A stretch of DNA of 28,375 nucleotides from a virus. The position numbers and the translations under genes are program-made. Position 1 is the first letter of the stretch. Each line of letters begins with the position of its first letter. Positions 1,320-28,375 of the stretch are shown here, piece by piece. The notes below the pieces were generated by a model. That model had not been told where the DNA came from, searched no databases, and was given only the letters and a program-made list of their open reading frames with translations. Where the stretch lies: positions 1 to 28,375 of IMG/VR virus record IMGVR_UViG_3300006052_000025. One strand, given 5' to 3'.

Positions 1320-1337
1320 GTCACTAACCATAGTGAC
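1320..1337. repeat. Dispersed palindrome copy 1
   Basis: GTCACTA-ACCA-TAGTGAC, 7-bp perfect arms. It lies in the gap between terL and the first PEP-CTERM gene, ending 23 bp before that ATG. Best seen as a member of the window-wide TCACTA-N4-TAGTGA set. Confidence 0.85.
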
Positions 1338-1360
1338 CAACAAACGAGGGACTAAAACAA

Positions 1361-2059
1361 ATGAGAAAGCTTTTACTTGCTACAACTTTACTTGCTGCTA
1401 TCGGGGTGACTCCTGCCTTGGCTGCCGACTCCGCTATCAGTATTTGGAACACAGCAAATCCGGGTGGCATTGAGACTGCAACTGGCATTGGACAGGCGAG
1501 TGTTCTATCGTCTAACCTTAGTGGCATTACAGTGTCAGTTAGTTCGGTTTTGCGTGGAACTGGACCCGACCAGTTGACTGAGGCCAATATCAACATTGAT
1601 AACACTGATAGCACTACACAAACGTTGCGGATCATCGCTGGTGCAAATGGGTTCGCTGGTCCGTCTGATGCGTTCAATCTGACGGGTGCTATTGGTGTCA
1701 CGCTTGGTGGTGCCGACTTGGTGGGTGCATACTTTGTTGACGGGACCAATACACTTAATGGTCAGGGGTTGACCGTTACAGGAACCAACATTGGTAACTT
1801 CGACTCTGGCTTACTGAGTGGCCCGCAGTCGTTCTCGTTTAACGGCATTGGTGCTGACCTTGTAAACACTCCTTACGGGCTAGCAGAGGAGTTGACTCTG
1901 ACACTTGCACCGGGGGCGGCAGTGTTTATTCAGGGTGTGTCAATGGATGCAACTACTGCGATCCCTGAGCTTTCTACGTGGGTTTATACTTTAGCGGGCT
2001 TTGGTTTGCTAGGGGTTGTTGGCTTGAGGCGTAAATCGTCCGCACGGTTTGCGCTTTAA
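1361..2059 (+). CDS. Secreted PEP-CTERM domain protein 1
   Basis: Predicted exported surface protein, 232 aa. The N-terminus is a classical Sec signal peptide: MRK, a hydrophobic Leu/Ala core, then PALA, with cleavage near residue 21-22. The C-terminus carries the tripartite exosortase sorting signal: IPELSTW (residues 201-207), a hydrophobic stretch of about 15 residues and an Arg/Lys cluster (LRRKSS). The consensus third residue (PEP) is Leu here, so sorting efficiency is uncertain. The middle is Gly/Thr/Asn/Asp-rich and beta-like, with no recognised enzyme domain. In bacteria such proteins are cleaved by exosortase and are linked to exopolysaccharide or surface anchoring; no exosortase is in this window, so host EpsH/XrtA would be needed. 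The SD is weak (GAGGG about 10 nt upstream). Function in the phage is unknown: host-surface modification, superinfection exclusion or a decoration protein are possible. Confidence 0.85.
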   Translation: MRKLLLATTLLAAIGVTPALAADSAISIWNTANPGGIETATGIGQASVLSSNLSGITVSVSSVLRGTGPDQLTEANINIDNTDSTTQTLRIIAGANGFAGPSDAFNLTGAIGVTLGGADLVGAYFVDGTNTLNGQGLTVTGTNIGNFDSGLLSGPQSFSFNGIGADLVNTPYGLAEELTLTLAPGAAVFIQGVSMDATTAIPELSTWVYTLAGFGLLGVVGLRRKSSARFAL

Positions 2060-2077
2060 AGCATGTGCGTAAGGGGT

Positions 2078-2152
2078 GTGTGGTGCGACGTGTTATCCAC
2101 ACTTAAAGGGACACTCACGGACTACAAAACGGAGCCCGCCCCTTTCTTTTTT
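2078..2152 (+). terminator. Possible terminator after PEP-CTERM gene 1
   Basis: A GTGTGG/CCACAC hairpin (2078-2083 with 2097-2102) is followed by AAAGGG (2105-2110), which can pair with CCCTTT (2140-2145) just before a T-rich run (2147-2152). The second loop is long (about 29 nt), so intrinsic termination is only plausible. The 113-nt gap 2060-2172 holds nothing else I can name. Confidence 0.35.
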
Positions 2153-2172
2153 CTCTAACGGGGACTACCCAA

Positions 2173-2982
2173 ATGAAAAAGTTACTACTTACTACTACAC
2201 TCACTATGTTAGTGACGGCTCCTGTGTTCGCACAGTCAATTCCTGATCCGCTGCACGGCTGCTATACTACTGGTTGCACTGGCTTCGGTGCAGTAACTAT
2301 TGCCAATCCGGCATCTGGTGGGCTATCGAATTGGGGCTTCACATCGTCACCGGGAGCGCAATCAGGACAACTTTATGTTGAGCTTCTCGTGCCGGATAAT
2401 GAGGGTGAGGCTGTCTTTCCGACATTAACTGGAAAGTATAACGGCAATCCGATGACAATCGGTGCATGGGTTAACGTTGGTTTATTTACGCCGGGAAGTG
2501 ACTTAACTACAGTTGTTGGTTTGAGTGCGTCACCAAAGAACCCTTACGATGCTTATGCACCTGATACGCATACGCTTGATCCATCATTCGTTGCTGGAAC
2601 AGATTTTTATACTGTCTATCAAGCTATTGTGACAGCCCCGGACCCTATGGCATTACTTGGTGGTGGACAGTCATCGACGTTAAATGACGTGTTCTCGTTC
2701 ACTGGTGGTGACTATACTCTTGGAACTAACGAGTTCACTGGTATTGGTCCGGGTGCGATCATCACGGCGTTTCTCGACACAAGCGTTACGGGTGGTACTG
2801 ATAACGGTATATTCTCAACAGCGCAGTCATCATCGCTAATTCTTGACGTGCCGGGGGTAGTAGTCAATCCACTTCAACCGGGCGTACCAGAACCATCAAC
2901 TTGGGTAATGGGACTATTAGGCTTTGGTTTCCTTTCGTGGGTAGGGCGCTCCTACGCTCGCCCGCGTAACATCGCAGTGTAA
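2173..2982 (+). CDS. Secreted PEP-CTERM domain protein 2
   Basis: Predicted exported, exosortase-processed protein of 269 aa. The signal peptide is MKK, a hydrophobic core, then APVFA with cleavage after about residue 20. The C-terminal sorting signal is canonical: VPEPSTW (residues 238-244), a short hydrophobic helix (VMGLLGFGFLSWVG) and a basic tail (RSYARPR). The body is rich in Gly, Thr, Pro and Asp with two early Cys (CYTTGC) and no catalytic motif I recognise. Its signal peptide resembles that of gene 1, but the bodies are not obviously alike. A copy of the dispersed palindrome lies inside the signal-peptide codons (2201-2215). SD is poor (GGGGA about 9 nt before ATG). A phage-borne pair of exosortase substrates is unusual; role unknown. 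Confidence 0.88.
   Translation: MKKLLLTTTLTMLVTAPVFAQSIPDPLHGCYTTGCTGFGAVTIANPASGGLSNWGFTSSPGAQSGQLYVELLVPDNEGEAVFPTLTGKYNGNPMTIGAWVNVGLFTPGSDLTTVVGLSASPKNPYDAYAPDTHTLDPSFVAGTDFYTVYQAIVTAPDPMALLGGGQSSTLNDVFSFTGGDYTLGTNEFTGIGPGAIITAFLDTSVTGGTDNGIFSTAQSSSLILDVPGVVVNPLQPGVPEPSTWVMGLLGFGFLSWVGRSYARPRNIAV
2201..2215. repeat. Dispersed palindrome copy 2 (N3 spacer)
   Basis: TCACTA-TGT-TAGTGA, both half-sites perfect but with a 3-bp centre. It lies 28 bp into PEP-CTERM gene 2, within signal-peptide codons. Confidence 0.7.
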
Positions 2983-3040
2983 GCCCCACCAAACTGCGAT
3001 GGGGGCTGGACTAGGGGTTTCCCCTCCCTAGTTCGGCCCC
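2970..3040 (+). terminator. Tandem strong hairpins after PEP-CTERM gene 2
   Basis: Two adjacent structures. CATCGCAGT (2970-2978) pairs perfectly with ACTGCGATG (2993-3001) across the stop codon. ACTAGGG (3010-3016) pairs with CCCTAGT (3026-3032), flanked by GGGGC (3002-3006) and GCCCC (3036-3040). There is no U-run, so this may be a factor-dependent terminator, an attenuator or an mRNA 3'-end stabiliser. An AAAGGAG ribosome-binding site follows directly. Confidence 0.5.
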
Positions 3041-3052
3041 AAAGGAGTAGTG

Positions 3053-3217
3053 ATGAGCAGAGGAGAGTATTTAATTGTTCAAGGAATATTTGCGGGATTT
3101 TTATCAATACTTATGTGGAGGCTGACACATAGTTATATAGGTTGGCTCGCGTTGTTTGTTCCGTGTTCTATTTGTATAGTACATGGGATATGTTTGGTAA
3201 TTAAAGAACGTTACTAA
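3053..3217 (+). CDS. Small membrane protein, 54 aa
   Basis: A short ORF with a strong SD (AAAGGAG, 3041-3047) and ATG at 3053. The product has two likely membrane helices: roughly residues 6-22 (YLIVQGIFAGFLSILMW) and 29-50 (YIGWLALFVPC, continuing to CLVI), separated by RLTHS and ending in KERY. This size and two-helix shape is compatible with a holin or another inner-membrane phage protein, but no family signature is seen and no endolysin is adjacent. It follows the two secreted PEP-CTERM genes, so an envelope role shared with them is equally possible. The stop codon overlaps copy 3 of the dispersed palindrome. Confidence 0.6.
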   Translation: MSRGEYLIVQGIFAGFLSILMWRLTHSYIGWLALFVPCSICIVHGICLVIKERY

Positions 3218-3226
3218 CTATAGTGA
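3211..3226. repeat. Dispersed palindrome copy 3
   Basis: TTACTA-ACTA-TAGTGA, one mismatch from consensus (a G·U pair if read as RNA). It spans the stop of the 54-aa gene; its right arm runs into GAGG ahead of a possible ATG at 3234. Confidence 0.65.
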
Positions 3227-3233
3227 GGAAACT

Positions 3234-3302
3234 ATGAGTGAGCACAAACTAAAAGATAAATTAAAATACCAAATACTATTGTACATGTGGACCCCAAACT
3301 AA
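3234..3302 (+). CDS. Possible 22-aa leader-sized ORF
   Basis: ATG at 3234 is preceded by GAGGA (3225-3229) and gives a 22-residue Lys-rich peptide (starting MSEHKLKDKLKYQ) ending at TAA 3300-3302. It fills the gap between the 54-aa membrane protein and the gene at 3313. It could be a real small protein, a leader peptide or chance; only spacing and SD support it. Confidence 0.22.
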   Translation: MSEHKLKDKLKYQILLYMWTPN

Positions 3303-3312
3303 AGAGTTAACT

Positions 3313-3702: not shown

Positions 3703-3703
3703 G

Positions 3704-4243: not shown

Positions 4244-4769
4244 TGATGAGCAGGTAAAACTCTTTCATGCGCTTGCACAAGAGATTGTGCAGGCGTATCA
4301 AACGAAAGAGAACATACTTAAGTCACTAAGTATAACAGAAGAGGGTTATGAGTTAATATCTCAAAATCCTACGTTTCAACGTATACTTCGCCAGTTAATG
4401 GTGGAGTGGAATGGGGCAACTAATACTTCTAAACGTGTTAAAATCAAATCTCAGTGGGCAGTAGAAGAAGGTATACCTTATATGTTTCAATCAATGACTG
4501 ACATGAATGAGCCGTTAAGTGCTCGCGTGGAAGCATTCAAGGCTATGTCTAAGATAGGTCAATTGGATACGCACGATCAAATACATAGTGCTGATAGGAG
4601 TTTTAGACTTGAAATTAACATAGGTGCTGGTATGCCAACAGTCACTATCAATAGTGAGAAAATTATTGAACATGAACCTACAACGAGTGAATGGGACGTG
4701 GACAAGGAAGATAATTACACCGTTGGGCGCTTTGTCCCTGCCGATCCACCCACTTTTGGACATAAATGA
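4218..4769 (+). CDS. Candidate terminase small subunit, 183 aa
   Basis: The product is mainly helical in its first 120 residues: an N-terminal LSDEQVKLFHALAQEIVQAY helix, then a segment resembling a small DNA-binding helical unit (ILKSLSITEEGYELISQNP) and a second helical block (IPYMFQSMTDM through KAMSKIGQLD). The tail (about 120-183) is beta/acidic. Size, helical make-up and a position between terL and portal fit a terminase small subunit or DNA-recognition protein, but no diagnostic motif is certain. The start is GTG at 4218 with AAGGAAG 9-10 nt upstream; no in-frame ATG is nearby. It overlaps the preceding gene by 26 nt. A promoter-like stretch follows it. Confidence 0.72.
   Translation: MKQVKIPLSDEQVKLFHALAQEIVQAYQTKENILKSLSITEEGYELISQNPTFQRILRQLMVEWNGATNTSKRVKIKSQWAVEEGIPYMFQSMTDMNEPLSARVEAFKAMSKIGQLDTHDQIHSADRSFRLEINIGAGMPTVTINSEKIIEHEPTTSEWDVDKEDNYTVGRFVPADPPTFGHK
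4642..4657. repeat. Dispersed palindrome copy 4
   Basis: TCACTA-TCAA-TAGTGA, perfect arms, inside the small-terminase candidate, coding V-T-I-N-S-E. Confidence 0.85.
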
Positions 4770-4799
4770 AAATAAATTTTTGGTCGTTTTAAAATCCCC

Positions 4800-4832
4800 T
4801 TGACTTAATTTTTTAAAAGAGTAGACTATAAT
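4800..4832 (+). promoter_or_regulatory. Promoter-like sequence upstream of portal
   Basis: TTGACT (4800-4805) and a perfect TATAAT (4827-4832) lie in the AT-rich 89-104 nt gap before the portal gene. The spacer is 21 nt, longer than the usual 16-18, so the -35 match may be accidental and only the -10 functional, or an activator may be needed. This is the best sigma70-like site in the window and would drive the structural operon. Confidence 0.4.
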
Positions 4833-4873
4833 ACCAGTATGCGGCACCACTAAAAATCTTGAAACGGTGGCTA

Positions 4874-7219: not shown

Positions 7220-7566
7220 ACCTCACTATCGTTAGTGACTTGAAGCGACTTTGTTTTGTTCTGTTGATGTTAGGTGCTTTTTGCGCCGATACTGCAATGG
7301 CAGCAGTTGCAACAACTAAACTAACATTGAATGTTACAACATGGACCGATCTTGGTGCAGGACCGCTGATGCTAGGATATGGTGGGCACGGGAATGTAGT
7401 TTATGCTATTGGTGATGTAACACCTACCATTCCGATCAAAGAGGGGTTTGTGTTTCCAACAACTGGTGGCCCTAAATGTATTAACACAGCTTCGCATGTG
7501 TGGGCAATGGCAGCAGTTCCTTATCCAACATGGGTATATGTTTCACCAATTGTTGGTTGTCAGTAA
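7216..7566 (+). CDS. Small secreted virion-like protein, 116 aa
   Basis: Residues 1-30 look like a signal peptide: charged DLKR (8-11), hydrophobic core LCFVLLMLGAFC, and AMAA near 27-30 as a cleavage site. The mature part (about 86 aa) has the pattern TTWTDLGAGPLMLGYGGHGNV, then IGDVTPT, EGFVF and SHVWAMAA, which I associate with small beta-sandwich phage virion proteins of the 'W-x-D-L-G-x-G-P ... V-W-A' type. Such proteins are normally cytoplasmic, so a signal peptide is odd. It starts by ATGA overlap with portal and a dispersed palindrome overlaps codons 3-8. Could be a decoration protein that has gained export, or a periplasmic protein. Confidence 0.75.
   Translation: MNLTIVSDLKRLCFVLLMLGAFCADTAMAAVATTKLTLNVTTWTDLGAGPLMLGYGGHGNVVYAIGDVTPTIPIKEGFVFPTTGGPKCINTASHVWAMAAVPYPTWVYVSPIVGCQ
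7223..7238. repeat. Dispersed palindrome copy 5
   Basis: TCACTA-TCGT-TAGTGA, perfect arms, starting 7 bp after the ATG of the secreted protein gene (codes L-T-I-V-S-D), where it could affect translation initiation. Confidence 0.85.
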
Positions 7567-7598
7567 TGGTCTTCGGAGCGAAGCAAAGGAGTAATGTG

Positions 7599-7902: not shown

Positions 7903-7921
7903 ATACGTAAAGGAGATAACA

Positions 7922-8200: not shown

Positions 8201-8205
8201 TTCTC

Positions 8206-8733: not shown

Positions 8734-9092
8734 CTTTTTGGGAGCGTAATTTTCCACCACCACTTGAAATCACTATTCATAGTGATTGTGGTATTGCTGC
8801 GCGTGCGGAGGTAGTAGCTGGTCTTTGCAATAAAGTCAATGAACTTAATGAATTTATTGTCGGGCTTGGTGCTGTACCTATTCTAGTACCAGCTCAGGCT
8901 AACTGTGATGAACGTATGCCATTAACATTTTTGCGCCCATGTATAGGGGTTTTGAATACTATAATAGATACAAGTGGCTTTGATATTGATCGTATACCAC
9001 AATTAGGTGATAGTATGGATTATCATGCATTTGTTCCTGTTTGTCGTAACATCGCTCAAACAATGAATAAAATTTTAGCGAGGTTACAATGA
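8730..9092 (+). CDS. Hypothetical protein, 120 aa
   Basis: Not recognised. Several Cys residues are spread through the chain (SDCGIAAR, GLCNKVNE, ANCDE, RPCIG, VCRN). The segment VVAGLCNKVNELNEFIVGLG is likely helical. It is coupled by ATGA overlaps at both ends, so it is co-translated with the Ig-like protein and the 242-aa protein, and probably belongs to the same virion substructure. A palindrome copy lies near its start and codes I-T-I-H-S-D. Confidence 0.78.
   Translation: MTFWERNFPPPLEITIHSDCGIAARAEVVAGLCNKVNELNEFIVGLGAVPILVPAQANCDERMPLTFLRPCIGVLNTIIDTSGFDIDRIPQLGDSMDYHAFVPVCRNIAQTMNKILARLQ
8768..8787. repeat. Dispersed palindrome copy 6
   Basis: AATCACTA-TTCA-TAGTGATT, 8-bp perfect arms, the longest arms around a non-palindromic centre in the set. 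38 bp into the 120-aa gene. Confidence 0.85.
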
Positions 9093-9817: not shown

Positions 9818-9818
9818 G

Positions 9819-10402: not shown

Positions 10403-11460
10403 ATGATCAATCACATTCCGATCCAAATGTAAGGATACCTCAACAAGTGCAGGATGCGGCTGCTCGGGCTAATGAGATTGCTGCTTCACTTAAAGCACCT
10501 CCGCCTCCTAATTCAAGATCCAATCCGGGGCAAGTCACTAACGTTAGTGACATGTCCGAAGGTCCACCCCAAGACCCCGGTTGGGAGCATAGATTTAATT
10601 CTATGAAAGGACGGTTTGAGTCTGCCGAACAACGGGCTCGACAGCAAGCACAACAGATTTCAGAATTACAACGATTGCTTGCTATGTCTTCTGGTCCACC
10701 TTCCGCGCCTCCTGCTCCAGTTATCTCCCCTCAATATGGACCATCTGGTGATACGAGATTTGGTGGCGGTCAACCAGTTGTTCCACCTAAACTTCTTTCA
10801 GATGCAGAACGACAAGAGTATGGCCCCGAAATACTTGATGTGATGGGCCGTAGGACGATGGAGATCGTTGGTCCAGAAATTACAAAACTTAGTAATGCTG
10901 TTATGCAATTGATGCAAGAGAATGCACAGCTCAAGCAAACTGTTGGCGGCGTTCGTAATGTCGTTACTCAGGATGCGACAGGGCGTTTTTATGATACTCT
11001 CGATAGAGAATTACCTGATTGGGAAATGACCAATCACGATCAAGAGTTCGTGCGTTGGCTTGAGAATGTTGATCCATTTTCAGGTCGTGTACGTAAAGAC
11101 CTCTTAGGTGAAGCACACCGGAACAATGAAGCTTCCCGTGTTCTTAACATCATAAAGGGGTTTAGACAAGAAAGAGGAGCCGCCGTTAACCCTGCTGGGA
11201 ATTTGCAACCATCTGCGGGCAATGGTAATGGTGCAGATCATTCACCACCCCCACAGTTTGAACTACAAAACCTTGCAGCGCCGGGTCGGGCAAAATCAGG
11301 GCAGCCTCCTACGCCCCCTGATCAACCGTATTATACCCGTAAGGACATCACCAACTTTTATGCTGATGTAACTAGGGGTGTATATACGGGCCGTGACGCT
11401 GACAAAGCGGCTCTTGAGGCACAGCTATTTCAAGCTGCCAGAGAGGGTCGCATTCGTTAG
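10399..11460 (+). CDS. Scaffolding protein candidate, 353 aa
   Basis: Placed immediately before the major capsid gene, of suitable size, and with scaffold-like composition: Pro/Ser/Gln-rich N-terminus, a coiled-coil at about 70-95 (FESAEQRARQQAQQISELQR), a second helical segment at about 155-180 (ITKLSNAVMQLMQENAQLK) and a charged C-terminus (LEAQLFQAAREGRIR) of the sort that contacts coat protein. Scaffold proteins guide procapsid formation and leave or are cleaved before maturation. The start is GTG at 10399, coupled to the previous stop; no competing in-frame ATG is close. Sequence families of scaffolds diverge quickly, so position carries most of the weight. Confidence 0.75.
   Translation: MNDQSHSDPNVRIPQQVQDAAARANEIAASLKAPPPPNSRSNPGQVTNVSDMSEGPPQDPGWEHRFNSMKGRFESAEQRARQQAQQISELQRLLAMSSGPPSAPPAPVISPQYGPSGDTRFGGGQPVVPPKLLSDAERQEYGPEILDVMGRRTMEIVGPEITKLSNAVMQLMQENAQLKQTVGGVRNVVTQDATGRFYDTLDRELPDWEMTNHDQEFVRWLENVDPFSGRVRKDLLGEAHRNNEASRVLNIIKGFRQERGAAVNPAGNLQPSAGNGNGADHSPPPQFELQNLAAPGRAKSGQPPTPPDQPYYTRKDITNFYADVTRGVYTGRDADKAALEAQLFQAAREGRIR
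10534..10551. repeat. Dispersed palindrome copy 7 (18-bp perfect)
   Basis: GTCACTAACGTTAGTGAC is a complete 18-bp palindrome because the centre (ACGT) is itself self-complementary. Inside the scaffold candidate, coding V-T-N-V-S-D. Confidence 0.87.
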
Positions 11461-12571: not shown

Positions 12572-12583
12572 GATAGAGGATGG

Positions 12584-12622: not shown

Positions 12623-12638
12623 TCACTAAGGATAGTGA
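12623..12638. repeat. Dispersed palindrome copy 8
   Basis: TCACTA-AGGA-TAGTGA, perfect arms, in the 70-nt intergenic region between the capsid hairpin and the GTG start of the adaptor gene (3 bp before it). Confidence 0.87.
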
Positions 12639-14174: not shown

Positions 14175-15032
14175 ATGAACTACCCTATCCCATTTTCTCA
14201 ATCTAACACAGCATATTTTTATGCTAATAGCACGAACAATATGGGCTCATTTAATAAGCCCATAGATGGTCGTGTGCAGATTAGTGTAGACTATAGCAAA
14301 CTTATTCCTTCTGTTGTAGTTGGTAAAGTGTGGTTTGAAATAGAGCCCGGTGGAGTGCCTCCACTCACTATAGATAGTGTGATAACAACTAGTACACTGG
14401 TTACGTTTTTTGTTGCTGGTGGCTATTCTGATATGTCTTATAACATAGTAGTTAATGCGACACTTGCTGATGGCAGTATACATAGTGATTTATTAGTAGT
14501 TAGTGTATTCGGTGAGGATGGTTGTGATTGTGCTTGCATAACTTCAACGTATGCGGATAACTATATACAGTTTGGCAATCAAGAAGTTTTTGTTAATAAA
14601 TACCCTAGGTTTTTTGTATCTGGTACTACACCTACAAATGCTAACTTACTTGACCGTTGGTATGATTTAAATAATCAAACTTGGTATGATTATGTTACTG
14701 ATGGTATAACTAATTTTTGGGCTGTATCTGGTGTTGGTCTTCCTCCACCTGATGTAGGTAGTATTGGTGGTGTAACTGGTAATATTACAATTAAGAAGAT
14801 GCAACCACTCGCTCTTGATGGTGTTACTGCTACATTCCCGCTTATATCAGTTGACTTATATACACCCAATGTTACAACTGATAATTCATTGTTTGTATCT
14901 ATGGATGGTGTATGGCAAGAACCTACTACACAGTTTACTGCATCCGGTAGTTCTATAACTTTTACAGTTCCTCCTGCTGCCGATAGCTATGTGTTCATAC
15001 TATGGATATTTGGAGGGATAACGAGTGGTTAA
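14175..15032 (+). CDS. Tail fibre/adhesin protein, 285 aa
   Basis: Start at ATG 14175 (GAGGG 5 nt upstream); an earlier in-frame ATG at 14097 would overlap the previous gene by 71 bp and has no SD. Residues 1-185 are beta-rich and paralogous to the start of the 686-aa fibre at 15996: both have TAYFYA[ND]ST near residue 12-20 and a LD[RQ]W[YF]D then TDGI-x-[NY]FW block. The last 85 residues form another small beta domain (MQPLALDGVTATFPL, FVSMDGVWQEPTTQF, YVFILWIFGG). Probably a fibre or fibre-adaptor component. Overlaps the next gene by 8 nt. Confidence 0.75.
   Translation: MNYPIPFSQSNTAYFYANSTNNMGSFNKPIDGRVQISVDYSKLIPSVVVGKVWFEIEPGGVPPLTIDSVITTSTLVTFFVAGGYSDMSYNIVVNATLADGSIHSDLLVVSVFGEDGCDCACITSTYADNYIQFGNQEVFVNKYPRFFVSGTTPTNANLLDRWYDLNNQTWYDYVTDGITNFWAVSGVGLPPPDVGSIGGVTGNITIKKMQPLALDGVTATFPLISVDLYTPNVTTDNSLFVSMDGVWQEPTTQFTASGSSITFTVPPAADSYVFILWIFGGITSG
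14365..14380. repeat. Dispersed palindrome copy 9
   Basis: TCACTA-TAGA-TAGTGT, one mismatch at the outermost base. Codes L-T-I-D-S-V. Confidence 0.65.
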
Positions 15033-15999: not shown

Positions 16000-18056
16000 C
16001 TGTTAACTATCTTCTTCCTGCTGGCACAATAAACAATCGTACTGCATATTTTTATGCAGATAGCACAAAACAGTTTGGCCCCATAATTAAGAAAATTACA
16101 GACCAAGTTTTAGTTATTTTAGATTTTACTACTATTTTGGCTGGGCATGTTATTCATACATATAATTTCACTTCTGATGTTGAAACTAATCCACCATTAT
16201 TTTTAACTGATCCTTTATTAAACGCAACTGGTACTGTGCTTTCATTTCTTATATCCGGTGGTATTGATGGACAACAATATAATATCACAATAGCAACTGA
16301 GAATGTTGGCTCAACAATTCCACGGTATGATATATTAACAATTAACATACCGTCAAAGTCTGCATGCGATACATCTATACCTCCAGTAGTTAGTTTATTA
16401 CTTGGGAGTATATTTCTTAATACTAATATTAGATATTTTTGGGGTCCAAACCCACCAACTGGTCAACATGTATTAGATCAATGGTTTGATACTAATACTA
16501 ATATATTATATGAATGGGCAACAGATGGGATTAATTATTTTTGGGAAGAGATCAGCGCTGGTAATGTCACTACACTTAGTGATGCACCATCTGATGGCGT
16601 TCTTTATAGTCGTAGAAATGCTGATTGGATAGCTGATCCAATTCAAATTGATGCTACTTCTGATGGTAAGATATATGTTCGTAATAATGCTGGTTGGATA
16701 CCTGATCCAATTCAAATTGATGCTCCCGCTGATGGTCAAGTTTGGGGACGAAAGAATGATCAATGGGCAATAGTTACTGGTGGAACAGGTGGTATTGGAG
16801 ACGCGCCATCCGATGGAAATACTTATGGACGTAAAAATTCAACTTGGGTAACTGTTACAGGTGGTGGATCAGTAACGATTAGTGATACTCCACCCGTTTC
16901 TCCTGCAATTGGGAATTTGTGGTATGATAGTATTGGTGGTCAGATGTACGTCTGGTATAATGATGGTACATCATCGCAATGGGTAGTTGTAATTAATAGA
17001 CCGGGACCAACTGGTCCTCAAGGTTTACCTGGAATACCGGGACCGCCCGGCAATGATAGTATAGTACCTGGTCCTCCCGGTCCATCTTATATATTACCAA
17101 TTGCTACGACAACTGTGCTTGGTGGTGTAAAGCCTGATGGAACTACTATAACTGTTGATGGTACAGGAAAAATTTCAGGAGCTTCTACTTATTCATTACC
17201 GCAAGCATCGACTACGGTGCTTGGTGGTGTCAAGGTAGATGGGACCACGATCACTATAAATAGTGGGACCGGGGTCATTTCAGGGGCAGGTGGTGGAGCA
17301 AGTATAACTGTAGCAGATACACCACCGACATTAACTAATGGAGCGATGTGGTTTGATACTGTTGGAACACAGTTATACATTGGTTACAATGATGGTACAT
17401 CAACTCAGTGGGTGCAAGCAAATAATCTTGCATTAGGTCTTCCAGCAGGTACACCAACTTATGCTGCACCCCCACTTGCCGCGAGTTGGACGCGTCAGGG
17501 ATGGGCCGGTGCCGTCACTCTTGCTGATGTTTCAAATGGGCTTTTATTTAATAATCCTAATACTTATGGTGGTGCAGTTTATAATTTAACTGGTGTGAGT
17601 ATTGTTGCTCCTGTCGCTCCTTATACTATTGATGCTCGTATTCGTTCAACATTTCCGTGGTCGAATGCTGCGGGCGTAGGCATTGGCTGGACCGATGGGA
17701 CCAAGTGTCAAGGGATCTTCGGCGGTTACTCTACGACTGCCAATCCTATCGCTGGCCCTTGCTATAGAGTATCTACATTTTCAGCATTTGCTAATAGTAC
17801 CTATGTTGCAGATCAATTTTTATTTAATATGTTAGTAGCAACACTTGTTTGGTTACGTATTCGTGATGATGGAACTAATGTAACTTTCTGGTTTTCGCAC
17901 GATGGGATCAATTTTATTCAGGCGTATACTGTAGCGAAAGCATCTGGGTATCTTGGTGCAAGTGGCTATTCAAATGTCGCGCTTGCGATGCTCTCCGGGC
18001 AAGCAGTAGCGGCTCCTGGTGTTACAGAACTACTTGAGAGTTGGTGGGTTCACTGA
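15996..18056 (+). CDS. Modular tail fibre with collagen-like stretch, 686 aa
   Basis: A trimeric receptor-binding fibre. Order: N-terminal domain (1-185) paralogous to the 285-aa upstream protein; four DAP-x-DG repeats (about 196-288); a DTPP...LWYD...YNDGTSSQWV module; a short collagen-like Gly-X-Y run (GPTGPQGLPGIPGPPG, about 336-365); two LPxAxTTVLGGVK repeats; another DTPP/YNDG/QWV module; and a C-terminal beta domain (about 490-686) ending SWWVH. That last domain is repeated in the next two genes. Collagen and repeat modules give length, and the C-terminal domain is probably the receptor tip. Joined to the next gene by TGATG. Confidence 0.85.
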   Translation: MTVNYLLPAGTINNRTAYFYADSTKQFGPIIKKITDQVLVILDFTTILAGHVIHTYNFTSDVETNPPLFLTDPLLNATGTVLSFLISGGIDGQQYNITIATENVGSTIPRYDILTINIPSKSACDTSIPPVVSLLLGSIFLNTNIRYFWGPNPPTGQHVLDQWFDTNTNILYEWATDGINYFWEEISAGNVTTLSDAPSDGVLYSRRNADWIADPIQIDATSDGKIYVRNNAGWIPDPIQIDAPADGQVWGRKNDQWAIVTGGTGGIGDAPSDGNTYGRKNSTWVTVTGGGSVTISDTPPVSPAIGNLWYDSIGGQMYVWYNDGTSSQWVVVINRPGPTGPQGLPGIPGPPGNDSIVPGPPGPSYILPIATTTVLGGVKPDGTTITVDGTGKISGASTYSLPQASTTVLGGVKVDGTTITINSGTGVISGAGGGASITVADTPPTLTNGAMWFDTVGTQLYIGYNDGTSTQWVQANNLALGLPAGTPTYAAPPLAASWTRQGWAGAVTLADVSNGLLFNNPNTYGGAVYNLTGVSIVAPVAPYTIDARIRSTFPWSNAAGVGIGWTDGTKCQGIFGGYSTTANPIAGPCYRVSTFSAFANSTYVADQFLFNMLVATLVWLRIRDDGTNVTFWFSHDGINFIQAYTVAKASGYLGASGYSNVALAMLSGQAVAAPGVTELLESWWVH
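16567..16582. repeat. Dispersed palindrome copy 10
   Basis: TCACTA-CACT-TAGTGA, perfect arms, immediately before the repeat block of the fibre gene; codes V-T-T-L-S-D. Confidence 0.85.
16581..16862 (+). repeat. Four DAP-x-DG repeats in fibre gene
   Basis: Units begin at 16581, 16650, 16719 and 16800, each D-A-[PT]-[SA]-D-G, then x-x-[YW]-x-R-x-N-x-x-W. The first two units are exactly 69 nt; TGATCCAATTCAAATTGATG and the next 2 bases are identical at 16634 and 16703. This points to recent slippage or recombination. Confidence 0.8.
17251..17266. repeat. Dispersed palindrome copy 11
   Basis: TCACTA-TAAA-TAGTGG, one outer mismatch, inside the fibre; codes I-T-I-N-S-G. Confidence 0.65.
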
Positions 18057-18910: not shown

Positions 18911-19599
18911 TGGCCCTTGACTTTCCTAACTCCCCCGCCCTTGGCGCGACCTACTCTTCCGGTGGTGTATCATGGAAATGGGACGGGACCAAGTGGGCGC
19001 AGTCACTATTGTTAGTGAACCCTCTCATTGTTGCGCCCCCGGTGGCTGCGAACTGGACCCCGCGCAACGGAGCGGCGATCTCCGACGTCGCCAATGGCGT
19101 GCAGATCAGCATGCCCGCCGTGACGTCCAACACCTACTACATGGCGTCGGTGGCAGCGCCAACTGCACCATATACGATAGACGCCGACCTCACGATGAAC
19201 ACTATTCTTCCAACAACCAAGGCCACTGTAGGCGGTGTTGGCTGGACTGACGGCACGAAGGTTGATTACCTTCTCTGCGGTTATGTAGGCAACGGCTCGC
19301 AATGCAATCTTAATCAGCAGAGCTTAGTCAACTTCACAACAATCAATACAGCAGGCACGACGTATTACCCTATTATTGGCATGGGCGACATCTGGCTGCG
19401 TATTGCCGATAACGGGACGAACATCACCATGTCGTTCAGCACCGACGGGATTACTTGGACGCCTGTGTATACGATAGCGAAGGCTTCTGGTTACTTGGGG
19501 TCGAGCGGCTACAGCAACGTGGGCTTCCTCCTGAACCCGGTGTCTGGCGCGGGCAATCCGGCGCACGCCATCACCCTGCGATCATGGCGGGTGCATTGA
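18910..19599 (+). CDS. Tail fibre tip paralogue 2, GC-rich, 229 aa
   Basis: Start ATG 18910 (TGATG with the previous stop). Begins [14 protein letters not shown]...WKWDGTKW, lacks the YNDG/QWV module, then carries the shared tip domain from about residue 38: [45 protein letters not shown] and the ending SWRVH. Codons are much GC-richer than in neighbours (for example 37 of 60 bases at 19081-19140 against 21 of 60 at 20461-20520). Protein similarity to the paralogues is high while synonymous positions differ strongly, which fits acquisition from a GC-richer relative rather than fresh duplication. Confidence 0.82.
19003..19018. repeat. Dispersed palindrome copy 12
   Basis: TCACTA-TTGT-TAGTGA, perfect arms, inside the GC-rich fibre gene and the only N4 coding copy in the other frame (S-L-L-L-V). 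Confidence 0.85.
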
Positions 19600-20051
19600 T
19601 GTTAAACTTCCCTGACACTCCCACACTTAACCAAAATTTTACTGCTGTTGGACTTACTTGGATATGGGATGGACAGAAGTGGGAAGCTAATACTGGTTCT
19701 CCCGGCACTGTACCAATTGCTTTTCCATTCCAAGGTAAGCCACCTGCTGGCGCACTAGTCAACGTGCCAATGACTATCCCATTAAATGTCCCTGCTGCTC
19801 TTGCTGGCACGACTGTTTATGATACAACATTGACCACGGCAAATGCAGTGTTCACCGTGAACAAAATTTCAGGTGGGGTAGTCACAGCAATCGGCACGGT
19901 CACTATAAATAGTGCGGGGCACACGTCTGCCACGTTAGCGGGTTCGGGTGGGGCGCTTGCTGTTGGTGATGTGCTTCAAGTTGTTGCTCCTAGTACGCAG
20001 GATACTACCCTTGCCGATGTTGGCATCACTATTGAAACGACAAGAGCATAG
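19599..20051 (+). CDS. Short fibre-type protein, 150 aa
   Basis: ATG 19599 overlaps the previous stop (TGATG); a longer in-frame ORF upstream only overlaps the paralogue. It keeps the [11 protein letters not shown]...WIWDGQKW head module (1-30) but has a different C-terminal domain: a beta-sandwich of the type seen in phage virion proteins ([66 protein letters not shown]). So the head module is reused with another display domain, evidence of domain shuffling. Confidence 0.78.
19900..19915. repeat. Dispersed palindrome copy 13
   Basis: TCACTA-TAAA-TAGTGC, one outer mismatch; codes V-T-I-N-S-A. Same 11-bp centre as copy 11. Confidence 0.62.
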
Positions 20052-21491: not shown

Positions 21492-23777
21492 ATGTCTGTA
21501 ATTACTATACAAGACTTCTCTGGTATGATGCCTCTTCGGGATGGCTTATTGCTTCCCGATAGAAATGCACAGTACGCTAAAAATACATGGCTTTATAAAG
21601 GAAGTATTAGAGGGTTCCGCCAAGCTACTCAGGTGTATACAACTATATATAGTGACACTCAACAGGTATACCGTATTCCAGAGAGTGTTGCTGAACCTCC
21701 TGATTTTGCAGCTTCTAGATGGTTAGAGTTTCCTGATCCATTTATGGCTGTGATACGTAATCCAGTTGTTGGAGATCAATGGAATAGATATTACTTCTTT
21801 CCATCCGATCAGTATAACTCGACTGGTGCTAATCCAGATTGGCCTATTGCACGTCCACTTCCTCAATATAGAACATATGATCCTGTAACTAATACACTTG
21901 GACCACTATTAACTCTTGGTATACCCACTCCTCTCGATCCACCTATAGTTGTACCGGCACCAACATCAGTAACAAAGACTGCAACTGTTGCGGCTCCTCC
22001 CGGTAGTACATCATTAACTCTTAATAATACTACTGATCTTAGCGATGGTATGTCTATTACAGACCCATCTACAACTACAGTAACGCATACGACAACTGCT
22101 AGTACTGCTCCGAGCAGCACAACTCCTAATGTTTTAGCTATGAATAGCGTTACTGGTATTTTGATTGGTATGACGGTTACAGATAATACAAATTCAACTG
22201 CACTTATTTATGGTACTACAGTTACTAATATAGTGGGGCTTAATGTTACAATGAGTCAAGACGTAGCTAGTAGTGGTGTGGGTAGTGGTGATTCGATACA
22301 GTTCCAAAACATTGCATTTCCTGTAGCTGCACAGATTGATACTAATGGAGTTGCTAGTGGAACAGTAGTTAATATGACTGCTGCTACTGCCGGTGCTGGT
22401 GTGTTAGTTGGTGATACAATTCAGTTTGATGTTACTGATATTGAAAATAGAGCATATGTTTATACTTATGTAAGTGCTTATGGAGAAGAGGGACCAGCTA
22501 GTCCACCGACGAATGAAACTGGTAATCCTACTGGTACATGGACAATAACTATTCCTGCTCCTGATCCAACTTCTACTACTGGTCGAAACTTAAATAGAGT
22601 GCGCTTGTATCGTACCGTTGTTGATGCTTCTGGTAATGCATCATATTACCAAGTAACAGAGTTTGGACCGCCGTTTCCAACTGGAGTTACTAACTATAGT
22701 GATAGCCAAACCCCACAACAGATTGTTAGTAATTCTCCACTGACAACTGAGCTTTATACGCCACCCCCTGATGACTTACAAGGGGTAGTGATGATGGCGA
22801 ATGGTATAGCGGCAGGGTGGAGTAATGAACGGGAGGTTTGGTTCAGTGCTGCTTATTTGCCTCACGCTTGGCCTGCTTCTTATGCTCTCACAGTGGATTT
22901 TCCAATTGTGGGATTAACTGCAAATGGTGCTTCATTAAATATTATGTGTAAAGGAGCGCCATTTATTGCTACTGGTGTTACTCCTGATACGATAACTATT
23001 GGTAAGATATCATCAAATGAACCATGCATTAGTAGAGGCAGTATAGTATCATCTGGTGAAGGTGCTTACTATGCTTCACCTAATGGTGTTATATTATTAA
23101 ATTCTAGTGGTACTATGAGTATAACTGAATTTGTATATGAGAAAGAGTTTCATAATAGATTAGAACCTTGGAATTGGGCTGCTGGGCATTATGGAATGAG
23201 CTATGTAGCTTTTATAAAAGGAACGGGATTAATTGGTATTGATCCTGATGGGGCGATACTACATGGTATAGTATTAGATAAAGAAGATAAAAATACTCCG
23301 TTTTGTTATCTTCATTTCTCCACTACGGTTAAGAATATGTATTTTGATGAAATATCAGGACAATTATTCGAGCTATTAAGTGATGGTAGAGTAATGCAAT
23401 GGAACCCGCCAGTAGGTATTCCAGGTACTACTACGCTATGGGATTGGACGTGGAGGTCTAAACCATTTCGTATGGCATTTCCTGCTTCATTTAAAGCTAT
23501 TAAGATTATATTTGGTGTGCCGCCAGAAGTAACAATTGTACCTGGAGTAAGAAATACCGATCAAAACCAAGTTTATGATCCTGCTACACAATATTTGATT
23601 GTTAGAGTATTTGCGGATTATAAATTTGTAATGGTAAAAGAGATACAAAAAACCGAAGAAATATTATTAATACCAGATGGATTTAAAGCTATTCTTTGGG
23701 AACTTGAACTTCAAGGTCAAATAATTGTTGCACATTTGAAAATGGCTACAAGTGTAAAGGAGCTAAGGAAAGCCTAA
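21492..23777 (+). CDS. Tail nozzle-like protein, 761 aa
   Basis: Likely forms the lower tail tube/nozzle of a short tail. The N-terminus ITIQDFSGMMPLRDGLLLPD then NAQYAKNTWLYKGSIRGFRQ is the typical opening of podoviral tail-tube proteins of the T7 gp12-like type. A Fn3-like part has NRAYVYTYVSAYGEEGP (about 320) and NRVRLYRTV. The second half (WSNEREVWFSAAYLPHAWPA, IVGLTANGASLNIMCKGAPF, GEGAYYASPNGVILL) looks propeller-like, as expected for this family. A Thr/Val-rich insert lies at about 160-315. ATG directly follows the previous TAA; the SD would lie in the upstream coding region. Ends with TAATG overlap. Confidence 0.78.
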   Translation: MSVITIQDFSGMMPLRDGLLLPDRNAQYAKNTWLYKGSIRGFRQATQVYTTIYSDTQQVYRIPESVAEPPDFAASRWLEFPDPFMAVIRNPVVGDQWNRYYFFPSDQYNSTGANPDWPIARPLPQYRTYDPVTNTLGPLLTLGIPTPLDPPIVVPAPTSVTKTATVAAPPGSTSLTLNNTTDLSDGMSITDPSTTTVTHTTTASTAPSSTTPNVLAMNSVTGILIGMTVTDNTNSTALIYGTTVTNIVGLNVTMSQDVASSGVGSGDSIQFQNIAFPVAAQIDTNGVASGTVVNMTAATAGAGVLVGDTIQFDVTDIENRAYVYTYVSAYGEEGPASPPTNETGNPTGTWTITIPAPDPTSTTGRNLNRVRLYRTVVDASGNASYYQVTEFGPPFPTGVTNYSDSQTPQQIVSNSPLTTELYTPPPDDLQGVVMMANGIAAGWSNEREVWFSAAYLPHAWPASYALTVDFPIVGLTANGASLNIMCKGAPFIATGVTPDTITIGKISSNEPCISRGSIVSSGEGAYYASPNGVILLNSSGTMSITEFVYEKEFHNRLEPWNWAAGHYGMSYVAFIKGTGLIGIDPDGAILHGIVLDKEDKNTPFCYLHFSTTVKNMYFDEISGQLFELLSDGRVMQWNPPVGIPGTTTLWDWTWRSKPFRMAFPASFKAIKIIFGVPPEVTIVPGVRNTDQNQVYDPATQYLIVRVFADYKFVMVKEIQKTEEILLIPDGFKAILWELELQGQIIVAHLKMATSVKELRKA
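21640..21655. repeat. Weak dispersed palindrome copy
   Basis: CAACTA-TATA-TAGTGA, right half perfect and two left mismatches; codes T-T-I-Y-S-D in the same frame as the other coding copies and fills the gap in spacing between 19900 and 22687. Confidence 0.35.
22687..22702. repeat. Dispersed palindrome copy 14
   Basis: TTACTA-ACTA-TAGTGA, identical over 16 bp to copy 3 although that one is in a stop/intergenic context; here it codes V-T-N-Y-S-D. Confidence 0.65.
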
Positions 23778-25120: not shown

Positions 25121-25135
25121 TCACTATTTTAGTGA
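25121..25135. repeat. Dispersed palindrome copy 15 (N3 spacer)
   Basis: TCACTA-TTT-TAGTGA, perfect halves with a 3-bp centre, in the 21-nt gap before the 25141 gene. Its right arm continues as GAGG, the likely SD of that gene. Confidence 0.72.
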
Positions 25136-25140: not shown

Positions 25141-26496
25141 ATGACGATGGGTGGCGGCGGTAAAGGTGGTAGCGCAGACCAGTCAGGTATGTTTGCGGCT
25201 ATGGCAAGCGCACAAGCTGCGAACCAAGCTTATCAGTTTGGAACACAAGAACTTGATTGGTCAAAGCAGCAATGGGCACAAGAATACCCCTATATGCAAC
25301 AGATTGCTCAGGGGCAAATTAGTACTCAAAACCAAATGTCTGACTTTAGTCAGAACCAACAAGGTTTTTATGAGTCACAATATCAACCTATGGAGGCTGA
25401 ATATAATAAGCAAGCTCAAGAATGGGCTTCTCCGCAAAATATAGCATTACAGTCTAGCGAAGCATCAGCTAATGTTGCTGAAAGTATTAATGCTCAAAAA
25501 GAAAGCTCACAGCAACAATTAGAAGGTTATGGTGTTAATCCCGGAGCTACTAGATTTGCTTCCCTTGGTGCCGCAATGGGAGTACAAGCTGGTGCAGCCG
25601 AAGCTGGTGCTGGTACACAGGCAGCAATGGCGACTAAGATGCAAGGGATGCAATTAGTTGGTGGTGCTGTCAATACTGGACGTGGGTTCCCGAATGCAGT
25701 TGCTAGTTTATCAGGTACAGGAACACAAGCAGGAGCAGCAGGATCGCAAGGTATAACAACTGGTATGGCGACTGGTTCGCAAATGATGACTGCACCATCG
25801 CAATGGTATAATGCCGGTGCAAATAATATGAGTGTTTATACTGGTGCAGTTAATGGATATAACCAAGCACAGGTAGGGTTTGCACAAGCTAATGCAGCAG
25901 AGATGGCAGGGTTTGGGTCCGCTGCTGGTGGTTTAATGGGTATGGCTATGTTCCATCCTTGGGCAGAGAAGGGTGGACCGATTGAGAGATATGAGGATGG
26001 TGGCACTGTAATTGCACTTCCACGACGACCTAACCCTTATAGCTCAGGAGGGCATTATAGCCCGCCAGTAGGATATGATGATGGTGGTGCAGCTATACCC
26101 GGTCGCTATTTTCAAGCAGGACCGGCAATGCAACAACCACAACCACAACAACCTACAAATAATAATCAACAATCTCCACCACCTATACCCCCACAGAATG
26201 GTACACCGGGTGGAATTATAACACCACAAATGTCTCCATCTAAAGGTCAAGTACCAGACGATGTAGATGCTAAACTAACAGTTGGTGAGTTTGTTATGCC
26301 ATTGGATGTAGTGAGGTTTAAAGGTAAAGAATATTTCTACAAAGAGATTGACAAGGCACGACAGAAAGAAGCAGAAGCAAATGCAAGAGGGGATGTAGGT
26401 GGTGAACCAGTGTTAGGTATACCATCACGTAATCCTCAATTTGTATCTAGACCAACTACTATACCACAAGCAATGCCAGCAAGGGCTGTCGCCTAA
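25141..26496 (+). CDS. Internal virion-type protein with GEFVM motif, 451 aa
   Basis: Starts at ATG 25141 (or 25147, better spaced from GAGG at 25134-25137). Begins MGGGGKGG from the second Met; residues about 20-130 are Gln/Ala-rich helices (QFGTQELDWSKQQWAQEYPY, FYESQYQPMEAEYNKQAQEW), then an Ala/Gly/Met-rich core (about 130-280). Two [YF]-x-x-G-G elements follow (RYEDGG, VGYDDGG), a Pro/Gln linker, and at about 375-400 the segment VPDDVDAKLTVGEFVMPLDV, a motif recurring in phage internal virion and tape-measure-like proteins. Expected to be packaged in the head or tail and ejected. No enzyme domain seen. Confidence 0.78.
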   Translation: MTMGGGGKGGSADQSGMFAAMASAQAANQAYQFGTQELDWSKQQWAQEYPYMQQIAQGQISTQNQMSDFSQNQQGFYESQYQPMEAEYNKQAQEWASPQNIALQSSEASANVAESINAQKESSQQQLEGYGVNPGATRFASLGAAMGVQAGAAEAGAGTQAAMATKMQGMQLVGGAVNTGRGFPNAVASLSGTGTQAGAAGSQGITTGMATGSQMMTAPSQWYNAGANNMSVYTGAVNGYNQAQVGFAQANAAEMAGFGSAAGGLMGMAMFHPWAEKGGPIERYEDGGTVIALPRRPNPYSSGGHYSPPVGYDDGGAAIPGRYFQAGPAMQQPQPQQPTNNNQQSPPPIPPQNGTPGGIITPQMSPSKGQVPDDVDAKLTVGEFVMPLDVVRFKGKEYFYKEIDKARQKEAEANARGDVGGEPVLGIPSRNPQFVSRPTTIPQAMPARAVA

Positions 26497-26509
26497 CTAT
26501 AGATAGTGA
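26494..26509. repeat. Dispersed palindrome copy 16
   Basis: TAACTA-TAGA-TAGTGA, one mismatch; begins with the TAA stop of the 451-aa gene and ends 9 bp before the next ATG. Confidence 0.6.
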
Positions 26510-26518
26510 GTAAATAAA

Positions 26519-28375
26519 ATGGCAACCGGATCGCACGCTGGATCATTCGCAGGAGGATTTATTAAATCCTTTTTGGCTGTTACGCAAATGGCGATGAGGA
26601 AGCGTCAGCTTGATGATATGCATCAGTTTTATGGCGTGATGATGAAGCAGATGCAAGCTAATATGGCACATCAAGCTGGCGATGATGCTTTAAGAGATAG
26701 GCTTACTCATGAGATTACACCGTGGAAAGGTTCATCTTATGATACTTCTGGAAAGACTGGAAGTTGGTGGACTCCAGATCGTATGCAACATGCGACAGAT
26801 CGTTTAGTTAAGGAAGCAGGTTTAAGTAAAGAGGGTGCATCAGGACTTGTTGCACGTTGGGCAGGAGTTGAAGCCCCAGATGGTCCTGACTCTAAAAATG
26901 ATATTGGTGGAGGTCATTGGGGTATTGGTCAATGGGGTAGAGGACGTGATGGTCCACAGATGGAAGGTGCTTCATTTGATGATCAATTAACACATGCTAT
27001 TGGAGAACTTAATGGTAAAGAAAAAGATGCTGCTGATGTTTTAAGAAATGCTAAAACACCAGAGGAAGGCGCTCGTGGTGCATCAATGTATGAACGTGCG
27101 GGGGGATATAACCAGAAAACAGGAACTGATGATTTTACTCATAGAACACCTGCTGGTGCAGTATATAATACAGTTTATGGTGATGGTGCAAAAACTAAGC
27201 CTGCTACCGCAGAAGCAACAAAAACATCTACTGGCGGTCCAACAGCTAAAACATCTACTGGTGAGCCAGTTAAAACTGATGCACAAGGAAGAGCTATTGA
27301 CTCAACTACTGGAAAACCAACAGCACAAGCATTTACACCATATCGTGTTGCTGGTGATGTACCAATACCGCCACCTACTACACCAGCGCCAGCAAGTAAC
27401 ATTCCAATTGGAGGTGGTGCAGGAAATGTTCAGGAAGCTCCTACAGGAATACCTGCGCCGGATCAAACTATAACTGGACGCACACCGGAGATGCTTACAC
27501 CGACAGTAGGAGCAACTGATCCAAGATTACAACCTGCTGCATCTGTTGCACCTGCACCTGCTGCACCTGCTGCACCTGCTGCACCTGCTATGCCTGATTA
27601 TCGTTTTGGTTTACCCGCAGGTGGACGTGGTGGTGGACGATATCAATATGTTGTACCGGCTGGACAACAACCAACACAACAACCAACGCAACAAGCACAA
27701 CCGGCACCAGCATTACCAGATAGAACTGGTGTACAACCGCCTCCTTTACCACCTCCTGATACTCGACAAGGTTTAAGACCACAACAAGTTCCACCTAGTT
27801 TACAACCTATGCCACCTAAACGTCCAGATGATCTTGGTGGTGCGACGGATACAAGTGGTAATATAGTTCCGGGCGCTAGTCAAGATACTGGAGGCGGTGC
27901 AAATGCGAATGTAGGTAGTTTAGGTGGTGGTACAGGTGATCCACTATGGGCTGGATATGCTGGTGCTTCACCGGACCAAGCTGCGTCGGCAGATCCATTA
28001 AATAGTCTCTATGCTTCAGGTCAAAACTTTAGTTCGTCTGCTGGTCTTACTGATACGACCGGATTGATGGCTGCTGGTCAGATGGCCCAAATGTCAAGCA
28101 TGGAGGATAGTGATTTAACAGCTACAATGTATAGAGGGGGTCCAGTTATAAGATATCGAAGAGGTGGTGTTATAAATAGATATCAACAAGGCGGTGATAC
28201 AGATGAAGATTTATTGAGTGAATATGGTGGAACAGATACAAGCGACCCAATGGCAAATGCATATTGGGATCAACAGCGAGTAGCTGGCCTCACTAACAAT
28301 AGTGACCCAAGCAGAGCATCCGACCTTCCAACTTCAATTATTAATCGAGAAGCAGCACAGCAAGGACAAGGGCAA
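26519..28375 (+). CDS. Internal virion protein with tail-lysozyme-like domain, 3'-truncated
   Basis: Open from ATG 26519 for 619 codons to the window end with no stop. Residues about 100-200 resemble the phage tail lysozyme family: GLSKEGASGLVARWAGVEAP with a candidate catalytic Glu (E118), then GGHWGIGQWGRGRDG, FDDQLTHAIGELNGKE, and TPEEGARGASMYERAGGY. Such enzymes cleave the glycan strand of peptidoglycan during DNA entry. A long low-complexity Pro/Ala/Gln/Thr region follows (about 220-450), then Gly-rich DNA-ejection-type sequence and at about 540-565 RGGPVIRYRRGGVINRYQQG, the shared [YF]-x-x-G-G motif. Only about 9 nt separate a palindrome copy from the ATG; SD is weak. Confidence 0.82.
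   Translation, partial: MATGSHAGSFAGGFIKSFLAVTQMAMRKRQLDDMHQFYGVMMKQMQANMAHQAGDDALRDRLTHEITPWKGSSYDTSGKTGSWWTPDRMQHATDRLVKEAGLSKEGASGLVARWAGVEAPDGPDSKNDIGGGHWGIGQWGRGRDGPQMEGASFDDQLTHAIGELNGKEKDAADVLRNAKTPEEGARGASMYERAGGYNQKTGTDDFTHRTPAGAVYNTVYGDGAKTKPATAEATKTSTGGPTAKTSTGEPVKTDAQGRAIDSTTGKPTAQAFTPYRVAGDVPIPPPTTPAPASNIPIGGGAGNVQEAPTGIPAPDQTITGRTPEMLTPTVGATDPRLQPAASVAPAPAAPAAPAAPAMPDYRFGLPAGGRGGGRYQYVVPAGQQPTQQPTQQAQPAPALPDRTGVQPPPLPPPDTRQGLRPQQVPPSLQPMPPKRPDDLGGATDTSGNIVPGASQDTGGGANANVGSLGGGTGDPLWAGYAGASPDQAASADPLNSLYASGQNFSSSAGLTDTTGLMAAGQMAQMSSMEDSDLTATMYRGGPVIRYRRGGVINRYQQGGDTDEDLLSEYGGTDTSDPMANAYWDQQRVAGLTNNSDPSRASDLPTSIINREAAQQGQGQ
27547..27590 (+). repeat. GCTGCACCT microsatellite in last gene
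   Basis: About four tandem 9-nt units encoding Ala-Pro-Ala repeats inside the low-complexity linker. Prone to slippage in 9-nt steps without frameshift. Confidence 0.75.
28290..28305. repeat. Dispersed palindrome copy 17
   Basis: TCACTA-ACAA-TAGTGA, perfect arms, near the window end inside the truncated gene; codes L-T-N-N-S-D. The set therefore probably continues beyond the window. Confidence 0.85.

Follow-up and report, generated by a model that had tools for sequence, protein, structure and literature searches.

Palindromic DNA sites with lineage-specific spelling across a family of podoviruses

What is the role of a palindrome that recurs at kilobase intervals along a phage genome, inside genes as well as between them? 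The question is raised by the IMG/VR virus record IMGVR_UViG_3300006052_000025 (G000 among the genomes compared here). We analyzed this complete record of 28,375 bases and refer to it as the window. An earlier note on its sequence had pointed out a repeated palindrome, TCACTA-N4-TAGTGA. It covers 28 kb of the genome of a soil podovirus, whose relatives have genomes of 59 to 66 kb. Its matches in PHROGs are a large terminase (1-1242), a portal or head-tail adaptor protein (4859-7219), a major head protein (11498-12571), tail fibers, and an internal virion protein (21492-23777); judged by these matches, the gene content is that of a podovirus late region. Megablast found no near relative of the window in 50,697 phage records. 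The palindromes prove to be real and under selection: they form a set of dimer-type DNA sites that is found throughout the family, is spelled differently from lineage to lineage, and in most lineages is paced at kilobase intervals. The explanation we favor, at a probability of about one half, is that a phage-encoded homodimer binds the palindromes and organizes the genome, and that its DNA preference has changed together with its sites.

All 17 strong sites named in the earlier note lie where it placed them: nine exact copies with a 4-bp center, two exact copies with a 3-bp center, and six N4 copies with one mismatch (Table 1). Its two weak sites (3846 and 21640) are present with two mismatches; like two further two-mismatch sites (14473 and 22776), they are inseparable from chance, and all four were left out of the 17-site set. 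The set is far above chance when codons are preserved. In 300 shuffles that kept the proteins and permuted synonymous codons, 0.047 exact copies and 0.67 one-mismatch copies were expected (maxima, 1 and 4), compared with the 11 and 6 observed. The copies are likewise in excess over dinucleotide shuffles. A de novo search for unrelated interrupted palindromes gave none close to the set in abundance. As claimed, copies sit both in genes and between them, with 12 of the 17 coding and 5 noncoding, in a window of which noncoding DNA makes up just 3%. A single codon phase is used by 11 of the 12 coding sites, which encode (V/L/I)T-x-x-S-x in unrelated proteins. Thus, the DNA word appears to bend the encoded protein, not the reverse.

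A 28 kb fragment alone cannot show that the set is genome-wide, as had been proposed; the 54 kb record of a close relative, G002, does show it, with 38 N4 sites at no more than one mismatch. A search of IMG/VR with the portal protein gave 146 relatives, of which the best 80 were kept. TCACTA-N4 proved common to members with 81 to 90% portal identity, G002 having 17 exact copies. More distant relatives (portal 34 to 60% identical) have no TCACTA-N4 and carry palindromes of their own instead: TTACTC-N4 in G005, G006, G008, and G013; TTACTC-N3 in G007; TCACGCCC-N1 in G009; TTACCTTC-N0 in G010; TTACC-N5/6 in G012; and GTTACC-N5/6 in the isolated Rhizobium phage RHph_TM27A (MN988461). Counts reach 12 exact TTACTC-N4 in G013, 20 exact ACGCCC-N1 in G009, 13 exact TACCTT-N2 in G010, 49 TTACC-N6 in G012, and 15 GTTACC-N6 in RHph_TM27A, which has 55 sites in total. 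Dinucleotide shuffles of these relatives gave maxima of 2 to 7, and most observed sets are far higher. G005 and G008 exceed their shuffles modestly at exact match and gain 23 to 43 more N4 copies when one mismatch is allowed. Weaker sets, with words picked from the data, occur in G011, G014, and G016; G015 has eight copies, all within 12 kb, and was not counted as genome-wide. We found no palindrome set in G018 (portal about 34 to 36% identical), RHph_N3_19, or CRP-207. Across the spellings, an outer core T-Y-A-C and a span of 15 to 17 bp are shared, which suggests a single ancestral site that drifted.

The letters and places of the sites are under selection. At ten alignable sites, the half-sites are 96.7% identical between the window and its relative G001, compared with 80.7% (standard deviation [sd], 4.2) at random places, where the maximum in 2000 draws was 93.3%; the 4-bp center is 79.5% identical, which equals the background. 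In orthologous genes of clades that spell the site differently, sites coincide within two codons 13 times where 1.8 (sd, 1.4) are expected, with five of the 13 at a single place in a RecB-like gene and with residues conserved between orthologues easing such words at some places. In most clades, a site in the local spelling is present 3' of the major head gene, and another lies 5' of the terminase gene (terL). Site 8, behind the major head gene of the window, is conserved in four relatives; at the same place, other clades carry a site spelled in their own way. The place of site 4 is kept with the same spelling in G001, G003, and G004, and other clades have nearby sites in their own spelling.

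The pattern of substitutions indicates what kind of molecule is read. Deviations in one half are frequent, whereas compensations in both halves are nearly absent, one symmetric position pair being left free. At position 2, the window clade has 42 C/C, 14 A/C, and no A/A sites, and the TTACTC clade has 18 T/T, 35 A/T, and 2 A/A sites. Two-sided changes would be acceptable in an RNA or cruciform stem; the observed pattern is the one expected of a dimer that has an affinity threshold. Since compensatory changes are few, the sites appear to be DNA read by halves rather than an RNA hairpin. In a transcript, such short-looped inverted repeats could form hairpins that serve processing, termination, or an RNA-binding protein. 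However, changes that break such a stem (A-G or A-A) are frequent, the centers of 1 and 0 bases in G009 and G010 make poor loops, and the site matrices show no T-run or other flank signal, unlike the A-palindrome-T arrangement in Aeromonas phage 1233. The features of an intrinsic terminator, a GC-rich stem followed by a T-run, are absent from the sites; in window positions 1 to 20000 no terminator-like call falls on any site stem, and a weak call at 19912-19924 touches the edge of site 13. We therefore hold a role at the RNA level to be highly improbable. The non-compensatory changes, the conserved half-sites, and the clade spellings at orthologous places instead support the earlier proposal of a dimeric protein with many dispersed sites; the protein itself is what we infer from them.

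The even spacing that had been claimed was confirmed. The gaps between the 17 sites have a coefficient of variation (CV) of 0.36, compared with 1.02 under a null that keeps the coding and noncoding split of the sites (P < 5e-5). The longer records of the window clade and G012 have CVs of 0.36 to 0.59 (P < 0.001); G002 has 41 sites with a CV of 0.58, and G012 has 83 sites with a CV of 0.59 and a smallest gap of 205. Spacing is also significantly even in G007, G008, G013, and RHph_TM27A. Two control sets measured likewise are uneven: the Cluster O repeats of mycobacteriophage Catdawg (CV, 1.13) and the stoperators of Bxb1 (NC_002656; CV, 0.97). For the latter we used what we take to be the stoperator consensus, GTTACGDDTCAAG, which is borne out by 27 sites in the Bxb1 record, 26 of them oriented with transcription.

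These controls bear on whether the sites act like stoperators, at which a phage repressor would block or slow RNA polymerase at many places and so silence a carrier state or time lytic expression. Our sites lie in and between genes and near junctions, with 28 to 31% noncoding in comparison to 3 to 9% of the DNA; density is higher in the early regions of some relatives, and several members encode XRE-like helix-turn-helix (HTH) proteins. Like the stoperators of the Cluster A phages L5, Bxb1, and Trixie, which number 20 to 30 dispersed sites per genome, they vary in spelling between lineages, there in step with the repressor (PMC6550527). However, Cluster A stoperators are asymmetric, monomer bound, and oriented with transcription, whereas the present sites are dyads and, being palindromic, cannot follow the direction of transcription; nor is their spacing random like that in Bxb1. 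Strong sets occur in RHph_TM27A, G009, and G010, which lack the XRE proteins, and promoter-like hexamers are not in excess in the window (36, compared with 45 in shuffles). Cluster A phages are also temperate and have genes for integration or extrachromosomal replication. In 12 records of the present family, some of which are fragments (the window included), searches at E 0.01 gave no match to tyrosine integrase (PF00589), serine recombinase (PF00239), or ParB_N (PF02195), while control genomes gave matches. No prophage relative was found among 84,980 bacterial and archaeal genomes, where only two distant relatives appeared, on 50 and 63 kb contigs of metagenome-assembled genomes. A "putative integrase" annotated in the GenBank record of RHph_TM27A (EVB29_077, L130 11749-14832) is the orthologue of a DUF927 protein adjoining replication genes, and thus the annotated attL and attR are doubtful. 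Therefore, the silencing of a prophage, one option of the earlier note, is disfavored, as is ParB/parS partition. Stoperator-like control of transcription is in our judgment unlikely.

The SPBRE sites of SPbeta, bound by MrpR, are alike in that one phage-encoded protein has many short sites in its own genome, but those number about ten and lie in the promoter regions of a prophage (PMC10516654), whereas most window sites are inside genes. MrpR also has a tyrosine-recombinase fold, of the PF00589 kind not found in our records.

No set with this consensus has been described, as the earlier note held, but a set of the same kind has. The Cluster O mycobacteriophages (Corndog, Catdawg) carry a 17-bp dyad repeat, TGTTCGG-N3-CCGAACA, with 34 copies in Corndog; its authors predicted dimeric binding and assigned no function (PMC4351075). 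Both sets comprise more than 30 exact dyad repeats with a variable center, in and between genes and independent of promoters, in phages without an integrase or known lysogens. At least 30 dispersed dyad copies are present in G002 (38 N4), in G012, and in RHph_TM27A. They differ in sequence, host, and phage type, and none of our spellings is that of Cluster O. One spelling was described for the five Cluster O phages, in contrast to the lineage-specific spellings here; Cluster O has a ParB-like gene, of which no match was found here, and Catdawg has 25 of 30 copies early, its CV being taken over 24 to 72 kb. Thus, the present family adds even pacing and a co-drifting spelling to the Cluster O kind. 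In bacteria, short dispersed palindromes bound by dimers organize or mark DNA (matS/MatP, Noc sites, SlmA sites, and parS/ParB), but these lie on chromosomes and at far lower density. Of the proteins that bind them, the domain search covered ParB (ParB_N), with no match in the 12 records.

We also considered whether a replication or terminase protein, for example one like the small terminase, needs sites along concatemeric DNA. Even spacing along the whole genome would suit this, and every family genome has a TerS-like gene, which in most of them contains or adjoins a site. However, terminases are known to act at a single pac or cos region rather than at dozens, and the TerS-like gene is found with other core genes in G018, which lacks the palindrome set. 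We regard such sites as quite unlikely. Among the options of the earlier note, nucleoid organization fits best as the probable function, with packaging keeping that small share.

Another alternative is that the sites belong to a host protein, nucleoid or regulatory, or serve as joints at which related phages recombine. Of 377 breaks in the alignments of relatives, 38 lie no more than 20 bp from a site, compared with 11 expected, a threefold enrichment that is confounded by gene junctions: breaks also occur there, and sites are enriched there anyway. Sites deep inside genes, such as 22687, over 1 kb away from either gene end, serve no joint. Against a host protein, the spelling tracks phage kinship, and the distant Rhizobium phage RHph_N3_19 lacks a palindrome set of this kind. 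Together, we give these possibilities a slim chance. Between the window (7239-7571) and G001 (8737), an indel the size of an open reading frame (ORF) begins exactly at the edge of site 5.

In the explanation we favor, the palindromes would be the sites of a homodimeric phage-encoded DNA-binding protein, one version per podovirus lineage, whose DNA preference changes along with its sites. One subunit would bind each half-site (core T-Y-A-C, with clade-specific inner bases) on one face of the helix, with roughly 10 bp between the half-site centers. The sites, some 25 to 80 in number and about 0.8 to 2.5 kb apart, with unusually even intervals in most lineages, run through early and late regions alike, in noncoding gaps if possible and within genes if needed. 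The job would most likely be architectural: the protein may hold, bridge, or mark replicating phage DNA over its full length, giving a phage nucleoid or preparing for segregation or packaging, rather than controlling particular promoters. A more specific version is that a lytic podovirus family has a dedicated genome-architecture system, in which p254 or another fast-evolving protein without a known fold sets the pace of its own dyad sites along the whole genome, protein and sites being respelled jointly under selection for even coverage. We offer this version tentatively, at about one chance in three.

Which protein might this be? Some 20 gene families are common to nine site-rich long genomes, and G018, a genome without a set, has most of them too. 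Only two are in all nine and not in G018: p254 and a small late-region protein. The latter (window 10142-10402) also occurs in G016 and G011 and not in G014, G015, or G018. The p254 gene, also present in G016, is outside the window; in G002 and in RHph_TM27A (EVB29_028) it is located between the genes for the ATPase and the terminase. Its product is 242 to 409 amino acids long in the relatives, is 17 to 34% identical between most lineages, and frequently has an Ala/Lys-rich tail. The structure model has a mean predicted local distance difference test score (pLDDT) of 76.7, with a confident helical core at about residues 11 to 160. Foldseek gave no match below E 3 in the PDB; VIA-align gave only middling helical matches, several of them TetR-type regulators, at Z scores of about 5 or less that are not interpretable; BFVD gave only the RHph_TM27A homologue and one uncharacterized phage protein. 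Searches with the single protein reached close relatives only, and its profile has no significant relation to the syntenic helical proteins of G014 and G015. We consider p254 the leading candidate binder but a somewhat doubtful one, only a lead since it was not found in the set-bearing G014. A winged-helix protein at the pol-RecB locus (G002, G005 to G008, G013, and RHph_TM27A) and an XRE protein (G002, G005, G007, G008, G012, and G013) were each rejected as the universal binder because some strong-set members lack them. Small HTH proteins near the polymerase gene, which differ between lineages, are alternative candidates. In RHph_TM27A, EVB29_057 and EVB29_062 are HTH or winged-helix proteins, EVB29_018 is the TerS-like protein, and EVB29_045 (L096 5724-6275) seems by eye to have three successive HTH repeats.

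Several observations weigh against a phage-encoded architectural dimer. For p254, we found no recognizable DNA-binding domain or confident fold match; it was not detected in G014 (13 sites), where the syntenic stretch is at least partly in the record, or in G011, whose record lacks that region. Evenness is not significant in G005, G006, G009, and G010, and even spacing could partly reflect constraint on where sites are tolerated. In some relatives, site density is about 2-fold higher in early regions, a bias not expected if the role is purely architectural. The G001/G002 and G005/G008 pairs are near-identical, and thus there are fewer independent sets than records. A host protein as the binder keeps a small probability.

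Table 1. Palindromic sites of the window, with one site of the isolated phage RHph_TM27A
Site	Position	Sequence	Match	Location
1	1321..1336	TCACTAACCATAGTGA	exact N4	noncoding, 3' of terL
2	2201..2215	TCACTATGTTAGTGA	exact N3	28 nt inside ORF 2173-2982
3	3211..3226	TTACTAACTATAGTGA	one mismatch	noncoding
4	4642..4657	TCACTATCAATAGTGA	exact N4	3' part of TerS-like ORF 4218-4769
5	7223..7238	TCACTATCGTTAGTGA	exact N4	portal gene end
6	8770..8785	TCACTATTCATAGTGA	exact N4	ORF 8730-9092
7	10535..10550	TCACTAACGTTAGTGA	exact N4	ORF 10399-11460; conserved in four relatives
8	12623..12638	TCACTAAGGATAGTGA	exact N4	between major head protein gene and next gene
9	14365..14380	TCACTATAGATAGTGT	one mismatch	ORF 14097-15032
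10	16567..16582	TCACTACACTTAGTGA	exact N4	ORF 15996-18056
11	17251..17266	TCACTATAAATAGTGG	one mismatch	ORF 15996-18056
12	19003..19018	TCACTATTGTTAGTGA	exact N4	ORF 18895-19599; sole coding site in other codon phase
13	19900..19915	TCACTATAAATAGTGC	one mismatch	ORF 19455-20051
14	22687..22702	TTACTAACTATAGTGA	one mismatch	ORF 21492-23777 (internal virion protein); place conserved in G001
15	25121..25135	TCACTATTTTAGTGA	exact N3	intergenic; place conserved in G001
16	26494..26509	TAACTATAGATAGTGA	one mismatch	noncoding for most part; place conserved in G001
17	28290..28305	TCACTAACAATAGTGA	exact N4	ORF 26519-end
RHph_TM27A		GTTACCTTGGGAGGTAAC		3' of head gene

Other features of these genomes were observed along the way. 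Two adjoining ORFs of the window (2173-2982 and 1361-2059), between the terminase and portal genes, each have a PEP-CTERM-like sorting motif at their end (PF07589; E 6.6e-6 and 0.017), which is odd for a phage. An acyl-CoA N-acyltransferase-like gene (24601-25119, phrog_4470) in the structural region is kept throughout the family. A conserved pair of an ATPase and a metallopeptidase/VWA-like protein, found in the early region of G002 (L090, L156) and in RHph_TM27A (26629-30100), presumably resembles CobS/CobT-like pairs. The 60 kb Photobacterium damselae plasmid p2_510 (L161) has a portal protein 34% identical and a ParA gene; the 48 kb we read has no palindrome set, and the plasmid is probably a phage-plasmid with a shared head module. 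Aeromonas phage 1233 (L134, 1-50000) has 17 exact, evenly spaced copies of AAAnCGGACA-N2-TGTCCGnTTT (CV, 0.38). These look like bidirectional terminators, and we rejected them as kin of the present sites, a separate matter.

Since the Cluster O report, dyad repeats spread over whole genomes have been known, without a function, from phages that have no known lysogeny. A whole family now shows them, with selection visible on the letters, place, and spacing of the sites. The lineage-specific spellings are a natural experiment for finding the partner protein, and because the isolated phage RHph_TM27A has 55 sites, the question is open to bench work. If the role is architectural, the sites would belong to a system of phage chromosome organization at kilobase pitch.

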